64,000 bases of DNA from Actinomycetota bacterium. Lineage in GTDB: Bacteria; Actinomycetota; Actinomycetes; Mycobacteriales; Mycobacteriaceae. Position numbers and translations under genes: made by a program. The notes below the pieces were generated by a model. It was given only the letters and a program-made list of their open reading frames with translations. It did not search any database and had not been told where the DNA came from. Below are positions 48,573 to 62,278 of this stretch, piece by piece. Within the stretch, counting starts at the first letter, position 1. Each line of letters opens with the position of its first letter. The DNA lies in NCBI GenBank assembly GCA_018268465.1, contig JAFDWN010000010.1, positions 292,849 through 356,848 of the forward strand. Direction: 5' to 3'.

Positions 48573-49886
48573 TCAACCTCGCGCCAGCGCTTCCGCCGCT
48601 GCCGCGCGACCGGTCCGAATCGCACCCTCCATGTAGCCGGCCACCCATTGGTCGGAACCGCACACATAAAACGGTGGCTCATGGGTGCCGTGCAGCGGTC
48701 CGACCCGGTGGACATCGCCTGGCCGCCACTGCGTGACGTAGCCCTGGGTCCAGGGATCGGTTCCCCACAGCCGTTCGAAGGTCGCAGACGGGGTCAGCGC
48801 CTCGGGGCCGAACCAGTCGCGCAATTCGGCCAGCGCCTCTTCGCGGCGGTGCCGCTCACCCGCGGACAGGTAGGCCGCGAAGCGTTCGGGCGGCACCAGG
48901 CAGGACAGCACACCCACGTTCTGCGGCCAGGACGATCCCAGGATGCCCTCCGATTCGGTGAGGCCGTTCTGTCCGCGGTCCCGCCAGAACGGACGCTCGT
49001 AGGCGGCGACGAACTTCGCCGCCAGCGCATGGCGCTGCCGGTGCAGCGACTCCAGCCGCTCGTCGGAGACGCCGTCGACGGTCAGGTCCCGCAGCGGGCC
49101 TGCCGGCAACGCGCTCACGACCGCCTCGGCGGACACCGTTTCCCCGGACGCGAGCTGCACTGTGCAGCCGCCGGGTGCGACCTTGATCGAGCGCACCGGC
49201 GATCCCAGCCTGATCCGGCCCTCCAGTTCCTGCGCCATTCGTAGTGCCACGGTCGCCGACCCTTCGGCGACACGCAGGTTCTCCCACTCGTCGTAGGAGT
49301 AGAGACGCCGCGACGGTGTGACGGCGCACTTTCGCAGTAGCGCCAGCAACGAGGTGCGCTCGAACGAACCCGAGCTCAGCCCCAGTTGACCAGCCTCCAG
49401 CGCCCGGCGGACATTCGGCGTCGCACCGATACCGGCGAGCCAGCGTGTGACCGGCAGGTGATCGAAACGCACCGCATCCGGATGCGCCCACGGATTGTCC
49501 GGGTCCACCGTCGCCGCGAGCCGAGCGAATTCCCGCTCGACATGAGCCATGCTTGCGTGGTCCGCATCGGAGAACCACGTCGGCCTGTCACCGACGAACG
49601 TACCTTCGTGCAGGACATACGTCAGTTCGCCCGGTTCGGCGACATAGCTCGGAATGAGGTTCAGTCCCAGTTCGGCGACCAATTGCTGATAGGCGGTGTG
49701 CGCGTTGCCGATCACCTCTCCACCGAGCTGGACGATGCGACCATCGTCGAGGGTGACCTGTTCGACGCGGCCGCCGACCCGGTTTCGAGCCTCCAGCACC
49801 AGGACGTCGGCACCGCCGGCCGCAAGATCGCGCGCCGCAGACAAGCCCGACAGACCGGCCCCGAGAACGACGAGGTCGTAAGACAT
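48573..49886 (-). CDS. Flavin-containing monoamine oxidase
   Basis: A protein of 437 residues. The FAD-binding motif is LVVLGAGLSGLSAARDLAAGGADVLVLEARNRVGGR (about 5-40), followed by LGGEVIGNAHTAYQQL. The C-terminal part FYVCGSDQWVAGYMEGAIRTGRAAAAEAL closes the FAD domain. Such enzymes oxidise primary or secondary amines, including polyamine-type amines, to imines with release of H2O2. It is the last gene of the minus-strand operon that starts with the Rieske oxygenase; 15 bases separate it from the ATPase gene. The substrate may be what the importer brings in. Confidence 0.9.
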   Translation of the reverse strand: MSYDLVVLGAGLSGLSAARDLAAGGADVLVLEARNRVGGRVEQVTLDDGRIVQLGGEVIGNAHTAYQQLVAELGLNLIPSYVAEPGELTYVLHEGTFVGDRPTWFSDADHASMAHVEREFARLAATVDPDNPWAHPDAVRFDHLPVTRWLAGIGATPNVRRALEAGQLGLSSGSFERTSLLALLRKCAVTPSRRLYSYDEWENLRVAEGSATVALRMAQELEGRIRLGSPVRSIKVAPGGCTVQLASGETVSAEAVVSALPAGPLRDLTVDGVSDERLESLHRQRHALAAKFVAAYERPFWRDRGQNGLTESEGILGSSWPQNVGVLSCLVPPERFAAYLSAGERHRREEALAELRDWFGPEALTPSATFERLWGTDPWTQGYVTQWRPGDVHRVGPLHGTHEPPFYVCGSDQWVAGYMEGAIRTGRAAAAEALARG

Positions 49887-49901
49887 TTGACAACTCCTGT
49901 T

Positions 49902-51029
49902 TCAGATCAGTGGTGCGAGACTGTGTTCGGGATGCCAACCGATGCGGATCCGTTCTCCGTCGGCCCAGCGCTCCTCGGTGCGCGCCCGGTGCAGATTCTG
50001 TTCGAGGACTGAAACCTCTACTCCTGGTGCGATTTCCAGAACATAGGTAGTGGTCGCCCCGGCGTAGACCGTGGCCTTGAGGATGCCGTCGGTCTGCACC
50101 ATGTCCGCGGTCAGGTCGGACAGCCAGACTTTTTCGGGCCGGACTGCGACGGAGACCTCGTCACCGACCGCGCAACCCCTGAGGGCTCCGGTGCGCAGCG
50201 GGACGCCGCCGGGCAGCGTGATGGCATCGCCGACGTAGGTGCCCGACATCAGGTTGGCGGTGCCGATGAACTCCGCGACGAAGCGGGTCGCGGGTCGCTC
50301 GTAGATGTCCTCGGGTGTGCCGCACTGGTGCACCCGGCCAGCGCACATGACCGCCACCCGGTCCGACATCGTCAGCGCCTCCTCCTGGTCGTGCGTGACG
50401 AATACGAAGGTGATGCCGACCTCGCGCTGAATGCGCTTGAGCTCCACCTGCATCGCCTTGCGCAGCTTGAGGTCGAGCGCGGCGAGTGGTTCGTCGAGCA
50501 GCAACACCGACGGGCGGTTGACCAGTGCCCTGGCCAGCGCGACACGCTGCCGCTGGCCTCCGGACAGCGCGCGGGGCTTGTCCTTGTCCCGGCCGGTCAA
50601 CTGGACGAGCTCGAGCATCTCGCCGACGCGCCTGGTCATCTCGGCCCTGCCCACCCCACGCCTGCGCAGTCCGAACGCCACGTTGTCCCAGATGGACAGG
50701 TGGTCGAACAGCGCGTAGCTCTGGAAGACGGTATTGACGTCACGCTTGTTCGGCGGCAGGTCGGTGACGTCACGGCCGTGCAGCGAGACTTCGCCGGAGG
50801 TCGGGTCGACGAATCCGCCGATCATCCTGAGCGTGGTGGTCTTGCCGCACCCCGAGGAACCGAGGATCGAGAAGAACTCGCCTTGGGCGATATCGAGGTT
50901 GAGATCCCGCACGACGGTGGTGTCGCCGTAGGACTTCGTGATGCCGCGCAGCGACACCGCGCAGGCGGCCGCGGCGGGGCCAGGGTCGATGGTCGTGACA
51001 CGTTCTGCAACAAGTGTTTTGGTCGACAT
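49902..51029 (-). CDS. PotA-like ABC importer ATP-binding protein
   Basis: A protein of 375 residues. Walker A SILGSSGCGKTTTL (54-67), Q-loop VFQSYALFDHL, signature LSGGQRQRVAL (155-165), Walker B LLLDEPLAALD (176-186), then a C-terminal TOBE region (about 290-370). Close to spermidine/putrescine PotA in layout. It powers the importer formed by the next three genes upstream. A second PotA-type importer lies at 9403-13301, so the genome has at least two. Confidence 0.93.
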   Translation of the reverse strand: MSTKTLVAERVTTIDPGPAAAACAVSLRGITKSYGDTTVVRDLNLDIAQGEFFSILGSSGCGKTTTLRMIGGFVDPTSGEVSLHGRDVTDLPPNKRDVNTVFQSYALFDHLSIWDNVAFGLRRRGVGRAEMTRRVGEMLELVQLTGRDKDKPRALSGGQRQRVALARALVNRPSVLLLDEPLAALDLKLRKAMQVELKRIQREVGITFVFVTHDQEEALTMSDRVAVMCAGRVHQCGTPEDIYERPATRFVAEFIGTANLMSGTYVGDAITLPGGVPLRTGALRGCAVGDEVSVAVRPEKVWLSDLTADMVQTDGILKATVYAGATTTYVLEIAPGVEVSVLEQNLHRARTEERWADGERIRIGWHPEHSLAPLI

Positions 51030-61020: not shown

Positions 61021-61084
61021 CCGTGGAGAACCGTTGATCCACAACATATTTAGTCATTGCATCTGCTGAAAGGACATCACGACA

Positions 61085-62278
61085 ATGGAATTCGCGTACA
61101 CCCCCGGCCTGGCCGAACTCAAGGAGCGGGCCAGAACCCTCACCGAGAAGATCATGCCGTTCGAGGACGAGTGCGAGCGGAACAACGGGCTGTGCGCCGA
61201 ATCGCACCGGTCGATCAAGGCAGCCGTACTGGACGCCGGGCTGCAGGCCATCAACACGCCGGTCGCGTTCGGCGGCGCCGGCTTGTCGGTGCTCGAGCAG
61301 GTGGTGGTGCAGGATGAGCTGGGCAAGCTCACCAACGCGCTGTGGGACACGGTGTGGCGTCCGGCCAATCCACTCGCCCACGCCACCCCCGCGCAACGGG
61401 AGCGTTACCTGATCCCGGGTGCCCGCGGCGACCGGCGGGACGCGGTTGCCATCTCGGAAGCCGCCGCCGGGTCGGACTTCTCGGCCGCGACGACATCGGC
61501 GACGCCCGACGGCAACGGCGGGTACGTGATCAACGGTGAGAAATGGTTCGTCACCGTCGGTGATGTCGCCGACTACCTGATCGTGCTCGCCCACGTCGAG
61601 CCCGACCACGCTCCGACCATGTTCCTGGTCGACGCCGACACGCCGGGGGTGAAGATCACCAACGTCCCGCGCTACACCCACACCTTCGTCTACGAGCACC
61701 CCGAGTTCACCTTCACCGATGTACGTGTCGGACCGGAGGCTGTGCTGGGCGGTGTCGGCGCGGGCCTCGAGCTGACCAGGGACTGGTTCACCGAGGAGCG
61801 GCTCATGATCGGCGCGCGCACCATCGGCGCCGCCGAGCGGGCGCTGAACCTGGCCGTCGGCTGGGCCCGCCAGCGGGTGCAGGGCGGCGAGCCGCTCATC
61901 AGGCGTCAGCTGATTCAGGGCATGATCGCCGATTCCGTGGTCGACATCACCACCAACCGCGCCTACACCCACCAGGTGGCATGGGAGTTCGACCAGGCCG
62001 ACCCTGCCGACGCCGTGGCCCGGAAGACGCTGCATGCCAAGGCCGCGACGGTGAAACTCGCGGCATCCGAGGCCTCCAACCGGGTGGTCGACCGTGCCGT
62101 GCAGATCTTCGGCGGCCGCGGCTACATCCGCGACTATCCGGTCGAGCGGCTGTGGCGCGAGCTGCGGGTCGACCGGATCTGGGAGGGTACATCGGAGATC
62201 CAGCGGCTGGTCATCGCCAACGAGACCGACAAACGCGGTTTGGACAAGCTGTTGTCGTTCCCCGTCGGCGTCCGGTAG
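61085..62278 (+). CDS. Acyl-CoA dehydrogenase, second of a tandem pair
   Basis: A protein of 397 residues that aligns with the preceding dehydrogenase along its whole length ([35 protein letters not shown] against [35 protein letters not shown], shown in part). Other motifs: [18 protein letters not shown] and [10 protein letters not shown]. The RKQFG motif is replaced by [15 protein letters not shown]. Both keep the terminal Glu-Ile-Gln-Arg tail. The pair may act as a heteromer or on successive substrates. It is the last gene of the rightward operon; a strong hairpin follows. Confidence 0.93.
   Translation: [397 protein letters not shown]

Follow-up and report, generated by a model that had tools for sequence, protein, structure and literature searches.

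A conserved two-armed gene island in a mycobacterial genome combining a Rieske oxygenase, a Pot-type importer, and a stand-alone NuoF-like flavoprotein

Gene content of the locus

The stretch of DNA analyzed here (64,000 nucleotides, hereafter the window) corresponds to positions 292849 to 356848 of contig JAFDWN010000010.1 in the 6.88-Mb genome (G000) of a member of the family Mycobacteriaceae. It carries a block of 13 genes that combines a Rieske oxygenase, a Pot-type importer, and a flavin amine oxidase with a NuoF-like flavoprotein, a ferredoxin, an acyl-coenzyme A (CoA) synthetase, and two acyl-CoA dehydrogenases. This block is a real conserved island: it recurs in other genomes, so the grouping of its genes exceeds chance. 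As described in the first-pass annotation, which was made from the sequence alone, the genes form two divergent operons, separated by a gap of 149 bases; the coordinates were confirmed, and all 13 frames are open, with no internal stops. The statement that most neighbors within the operons overlap by 4 bases is just right (6 of 11 pairs, with a 1-base overlap in one more). The gene family labels were compared with a Pfam/NCBIfam scan of 10 of the 13 proteins (all except the importer ATPase and the two permeases), which agreed with them for the 9 proteins that had any match.

The left arm, encoded entirely on the minus strand, starts with the alpha subunit of a Rieske oxygenase (54566..55780; PF00355 and PF00848; supported by alignment with E. 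coli YeaW), followed by a TetR-family regulator with a BetI-like C-terminal domain (53922..54569; PF13977, 9.6e-17). Next come a PotD-like substrate-binding protein with a signal peptide of the twin-arginine translocation (Tat) type (52792..53922; NCBIfam PotD and TAT_signal_seq, the latter at 20.4 bits) and two ABC importer permeases (51923..52795 and 51036..51926), whose order is conserved in the relatives. The PotA-like importer ATPase (49902..51029) is 80 to 86% identical to its counterparts in the mycobacterial loci and 65 to 70% identical to those in loci L129 to L134. The arm ends with the flavin amine oxidase (48573..49886; PF01593, 1.7e-55; solved relatives 3rha and 2yg6), which is also kept in the relatives. 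No gene for a Rieske beta subunit was found within the locus.

The right arm, on the plus strand, begins with a 134-residue helical protein (55930..56334) that is conserved with the locus; it had no Pfam/NCBIfam match, and its predicted model is all-helical, with a predicted local distance difference test (pLDDT) score of 78. It is followed by the stand-alone NuoF-like flavoprotein (56331..57557; Complex1_51K and NADH_4Fe-4S) and by a single-cluster ferredoxin (57554..57748; PF13459) with a CXXYXXC(X)nCP motif (C10, C16, and CP at position 55). The remaining genes of this arm encode an NDP-forming acyl-CoA synthetase with a GTG start and the SHTGS and LLHKSD motifs (57745..59811; PF13380, PF13607, and PF13549) and two acyl-CoA dehydrogenases (59824..61020 and 61085..62278), each with the IWEGT motif that contains the catalytic Glu.

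Conservation of the two arms and of their shared promoter region

Searches with the Rieske protein, which select neither for NuoF nor for the right arm, found 8 members at E <= 1e-70 among 394 genomes of the class (the window's own, G239, and six from genus g52) and 9 among 396 genomes of the window's genus, including its own and G239. Both arms flank the Rieske gene in all 14 other loci (6 from g52 and 8 mycobacterial). A lack of co-occurrence had been named beforehand as a possible refutation of the claim that the two arms make up one system; in the related genomes they do co-occur, and the claim stands on this co-occurrence, on a common TetR-type box, and on the pathway genes that relatives add to the block.

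A NuoF-based search for related loci yielded eight Streptomyces loci among the 80 kept, six of them with the block in full order. In L056, the block is truncated by the contig end. In L093, from Streptomyces avidinii, a deletion extends from within the amine oxidase gene into the gene for the 134-residue protein; the importer, the Rieske oxygenase, and most of the 134-residue gene are lost, and NuoF, the ferredoxin, the synthetase, and the dehydrogenases persist. This deletion may be real or may be an assembly fault. In the Streptomyces-type loci, the TetR gene is found instead in the right arm, at its distal end. Two loci from another family, L187 and L188, encode next to the synthetase a Rieske oxygenase of a different subfamily (29% identity) and, opposite the synthetase side, TetR, the Pot importer, the amine oxidase (63%), an acyl-CoA dehydrogenase, and a hydratase. 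Because a different Rieske subfamily stands beside the same gene set, these loci suggest that a Rieske oxygenase belongs to the pathway. The same CoA synthetase and a Pot importer are also seen in L181 (G420), together with genes that, judged by eye, encode a major facilitator superfamily transporter and isochorismatase-like and oxoprolinase-subunit-like proteins.

The promoter region common to both arms contains a putative TetR box, TGACTAATTGATTAGT (55863..55878, plus strand). This region was compared across 21 loci (9 mycobacterial and 12 of the Streptomyces type), and in 18 of the 21 intergenic regions the best match to TGACTAAYTRRTTAGT, a pattern derived from the very sequences on which it was scored, has 0 or 1 mismatch. 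The other regions, those of L063, L065, and L082, have 4 mismatches each and contain a related box, TGACCGAT...ATCGGTCA. A whole-genome count does not discriminate, as the reversed pattern matches twice and the pattern itself once, so the weight of the box comes from its conservation between distant genera. Given this conservation in the common promoter region, one TetR regulator probably governs both arms. This regulator scored 65.3 bits against the NCBIfam BetI model, below the cut-off of 201.3.

The Rieske oxygenase

Alignment with YeaW, annotated as a carnitine monooxygenase subunit, places the Rieske cluster ligands at C96, H98, C115, and H118 and the iron ligands at H222, H227, and D352. 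In the same alignment, the bridging E219 and Y217 fall at the positions of CntA E205 and Y203. A cation-pi aromatic residue and a bridging Glu are described for group Va enzymes (PMC7948474). Both Y217 and E219 are conserved in 8 aligned orthologues and throughout a 20-row conservation table; the NYxE/NFxE pattern also occurs in other Rieske proteins of the same genome and is therefore not specific. The C206/C209 pair of CntA is not kept, the window protein having G220 and V223 at these positions; according to PMC10952381, a Cys pair beside the iron site is present in some members of group V.

The best solved relatives are the carnitine monooxygenase CntA and then the stachydrine demethylase Stc2, with aromatic dioxygenases close behind. 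In a 22-row tree, the window protein and its orthologues form a clade of their own (support 93/98); the branches are long, and the tree neither groups this clade with YeaW nor separates the two. Identity to plasmid-borne homologues is approximately 34% or less.

The NuoF-like flavoprotein and the ferredoxin

The NuoF-like protein is the sole reductase among the 13 gene products. It scored 156.4 bits against the NCBIfam NuoF equivalog (cut-off, 558.65). Its flavin/NADH region is retained, and it can be aligned with NuoF of complex I as well as with FdsB, HydB, and NfnB; the mean pLDDT of its model is 80. The first Cys of the CxxCxxC motif, whose Cys residues are taken here to be the ligands of the N3 cluster, is replaced by Ala (Ala313) in all 14 aligned relatives. 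These relatives keep C316, C319, and C359 and have an extra C-terminal C388xxC391. A tree built from 48 NuoF-like proteins puts the window NuoF in one clade (99/91) with all 14 NuoFs from Streptomyces-type loci; the protein from locus L182 comes next (95/78), and the mycobacterial paralogues stand apart.

All 23 locus ferredoxins share the CQGYG[LV]C...CP motif, and NuoF adjoins the ferredoxin gene in each of the six g52 loci found via the Rieske gene. In L144, the ferredoxin frame (10921-11136) is seemingly shifted near its start relative to that of its neighbor G239.

No PF00175 match was found within 20 kb of the window Rieske gene in a search that did not extend to FAD-type reductases (PF07992). 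A second Rieske protein is encoded 25 kb away in the same genome, with an FNR-type reductase ~5 kb from it. The only PF00175 (FNR NAD-binding) match in the window (33846-34187) belongs to a 1,048-residue frame at 31158-34304.

The importer, the amine oxidase, and the likely substrate

The best PDB relatives of the binding protein are putrescine/spermidine-binding proteins, and it scored 146.5 bits against the NCBIfam PotD equivalog, whose cut-off is 582. The acidic amine-holding residues and W255 of the PotD pocket are placed here by presumed numbering. The aligned binding protein retains the PotD-type acidic positions, which are conserved among 19 binding proteins, and has Asn at the position of the pocket Trp (W255). 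The closest solved relatives of the amine oxidase are putrescine oxidases. In the Rhodococcus putrescine oxidase, Glu324 is presumed to be the contact of the distal amine; the stretch of the window protein that aligns with this region shows a gap or non-acidic residues. Taken together, the residue comparisons for the Rieske oxygenase, the binding protein, and the amine oxidase make it plausible that the substrate is not putrescine itself but another small cationic amine, either a quaternary compound or one that carries at least two amine groups.

Predicted pathway and accessory genes

In such a pathway, the Pot-type importer would bring the amine into the cell. Oxidation by the Rieske monooxygenase at a carbon adjacent to the nitrogen and deamination of an amine by the flavin amine oxidase would yield an aldehyde. 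An aldehyde dehydrogenase, encoded in the block of many relatives and presumably elsewhere in the window's genome, would produce the acid, which the NDP-forming synthetase would convert to the CoA ester; the two acyl-CoA dehydrogenases could then finish the breakdown together with a hydratase and a hydroxyacyl-CoA dehydrogenase, drawn either from general metabolism or from the locus. A less firmly based addition is that electrons might pass from NADH through the flavin and Fe-S centers of NuoF to the CXXYXXC ferredoxin and on to the Rieske cluster; where the cis NuoF has been lost, its role might fall to a NuoF paralogue or to a different reductase.

The genes that the relatives add to the block support the route from amine to aldehyde, acid, and acyl-CoA. 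An aldehyde dehydrogenase gene follows the amine oxidase gene in all six g52 loci and in 5 of the 8 other mycobacterial loci; it is absent in L145 and L149, and L146 reaches a contig end. In L147, a different ABC importer is encoded beyond the aldehyde dehydrogenase. A 3-hydroxyacyl-CoA dehydrogenase gene follows the second acyl-CoA dehydrogenase gene in all six g52 loci, and five of the eight mycobacterial loci (G239, L144, L146, L148, and L150) have a short-chain dehydrogenase/reductase (SDR) gene between the two acyl-CoA dehydrogenase genes, which are followed by a gene for an enoyl-CoA hydratase. The earlier proposal that an amine is converted to an acid, activated as a CoA ester, and dehydrogenated finds good support, in outline, in the genes of relatives, and its substrate class is plausible.

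A second amine-type cluster (L135 and L191; G000:C1:361092-379329) lies ~4 to 23 kb past the right end of the window. It encodes an amine oxidase and a Rieske protein (51% and 34% identical to those of the window, respectively), an Opp-type importer, an aldehyde dehydrogenase, a hydroxyacyl-CoA dehydrogenase, an enoyl-CoA hydratase, an SDR, acyl-CoA dehydrogenases, and an FNR-type reductase with a [2Fe-2S] domain. This cluster holds candidates for the steps missing from the block in the window. Just past the right end of that block, the frame at 62313-63170 opens with what looks like a signal sequence and contains a TASTIK stretch, reminiscent, by eye, of beta-lactamase-fold serine hydrolases.

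Electron supply and alternative explanations

The favored reading is that the island serves the aerobic catabolism of a small cationic amine under TetR control, with the NuoF electron chain as its weaker component; it is given roughly even odds (probability, about 0.5). The gene content, the conservation of the block, the shared operator-like box, and the intact catalytic motifs are established directly from the sequences. A more tentative proposal, held with somewhat less confidence, is that a stand-alone NADH:ferredoxin reductase derived from NuoF, with its cluster site changed, might together with the CXXYXXC ferredoxin represent a new class of electron supply for Rieske oxygenases, here driving oxidation of a C-N bond in the cationic amine after its import. 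Most mycobacterial members would then have lost the cis reductase, its place being taken by a NuoF paralogue or by a different reductase. That NuoF feeds the Rieske enzyme, as the first-pass annotation suggested, is favored by the lack of any other reductase among the 13 genes, by a NuoF clade that tracks the locus, by the adjacency of NuoF and ferredoxin in the g52 loci, by the constant association of the ferredoxin with the Rieske gene, and by the contrast with the second Rieske protein of this genome and its nearby FNR-type reductase.

Several observations weigh against the favored reading, most of them against its electron chain. NuoF is absent from all 8 other mycobacterial loci, which keep the Rieske oxygenase and the ferredoxin. 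The widespread paralogous NuoF-ferredoxin pairs of mycobacteria (L040-L118) have as neighbors not Rieske oxygenases but amidohydrolase-like genes, along with a small protein that resembles a Rieske ferredoxin. In L182 (genome G579), a distant relative in which TetR and a Pot importer lie opposite NuoF, the ferredoxin, and the synthetase, no Rieske protein, amine oxidase, or cytochrome P450 (P450) was found in 19.8 kb. Ferredoxins of the CXXYXXC(X)nCP kind are described as P450 partners by Child and colleagues (PMC6237146). L147 is the sole one of the 14 loci without a Pot importer. The window's own block contains no aldehyde dehydrogenase, SDR, hydratase, or hydroxyacyl-CoA dehydrogenase gene, so that these would be supplied from elsewhere in the genome.

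Part of this pattern could be explained by gene loss. Streptomyces-type loci and the window have NuoF at the same place, which makes its loss in the mycobacterial loci the simpler reading; the locus tree does not settle whether a single loss suffices. In the NuoF-less loci, the gene for the 134-residue protein runs directly into the ferredoxin gene. The last codons of the window NuoF, together with the ferredoxin ribosome site, look similar to the final part of the gene for the 134-residue protein as it occurs in these loci; this likeness would be compatible with a NuoF deletion, although the stretch is too short to serve as proof. All 8 NuoF-less genomes have a NuoF paralogue elsewhere (51 to 55% identity; the other copies in G000 show 36% and 28%). 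This offers weak support for replacement of the locus NuoF in trans, since 27 of 28 other genomes of the genus hold such a paralogue, a stand-alone NuoF-like gene, anyway. The genome of L182 has six Rieske-domain matches elsewhere, so this locus is compatible with the idea that NuoF serves a Rieske enzyme.

The same variants could mean that the island is correctly described and that NuoF and the ferredoxin serve a different acceptor, either a P450 whose gene lies elsewhere in the genome or some step in CoA-ester metabolism, with the Rieske enzyme relying on a general reductase. Such an arrangement, judged less likely than the favored reading, would account for the NuoF-less loci, for L182, for the P450-associated type of the ferredoxin, and for L093, which keeps the right-arm genes despite loss of the importer and the Rieske oxygenase. 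However, a motif scan of the window locus and of the six named Streptomyces loci that were seen in full revealed no P450, the ferredoxin remains with the Rieske oxygenase where NuoF is gone, and the L093 deletion also cuts the amine oxidase gene, which points to a damaged rather than a remodeled locus.

Ordinary use of putrescine or spermidine, with PotD-type import, deamination of the putrescine oxidase type, conversion of the acid to its CoA ester, and a Rieske enzyme acting on a side product, would fit the closest solved relatives of the binding protein and the amine oxidase and the retained acidic positions of the former. It is nevertheless improbable, given the Asn in place of W255, the lack of a counterpart to Glu324, the low PotD score, and the conservation of the Rieske gene with the importer-amine oxidase arm in all 14 loci. 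That two unrelated operons became neighbors by chance is hardly credible: each arm could make sense alone, and variants with partial gene sets exist, but this idea is already contradicted by the joining of both arms in 14 of 14 other loci from two genera and by the conserved common box.

Comparison with known systems

To our knowledge, the known Rieske systems receive their electrons from FNR-type or FAD-type reductases. Searches of the open-access literature returned no description of this locus or of any Rieske oxygenase served by a NuoF-like reductase; the accessible part of PMC12445004 describes a flavin-containing reductase and a ferredoxin for Rieske systems and does not name NuoF. A complex-I-derived reductase, if it proves true, would widen the list of Rieske electron donors and would provide a function for the stand-alone NuoF-like genes that are common in mycobacteria. 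With NuoF naturally missing from 8 of the 9 mycobacterial loci, a ready-made test of its role is at hand.

The importer and the amine oxidase resemble PotABCD and putrescine oxidase in their fold families and gene types and differ from them in key specificity residues (at the presumed positions given above). The NuoF-like protein shares the flavin mononucleotide (FMN) and Fe-S domains and the fold of NuoF, HydB, NfnB, and FdsB; in contrast to these, it is stand-alone, with no NuoE-like gene adjoining, and has Ala at the first cluster Cys and an extra CxxC. The ferredoxin matches the Fdx3-type ferredoxins of M. marinum in cluster motif and size, but its neighbors are a Rieske oxygenase and NuoF instead of a P450 and an FAD reductase. 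With CntAB/YeaWX and other group V quaternary-amine systems, the locus shares the lack of a beta subunit gene, the bridging Glu, the Tyr at the cation-pi position, and the best PDB match. Unlike CntAB, it has no Cys pair, and its reductase would consist of NuoF and a single-cluster ferredoxin, whereas CntB is an FMN/[2Fe-2S] protein. The ferredoxin half of this arrangement has a parallel on the Priestia megaterium plasmid pMLY91_1 (L195), where a CntA-like Rieske gene adjoins a gene for a single-cluster ferredoxin, with a separate reductase and an aldehyde dehydrogenase; there, however, the ferredoxin has a CxxCxxC motif of the 4Fe-4S kind, and the reductase is of the FAD/NAD(P) type, not NuoF.

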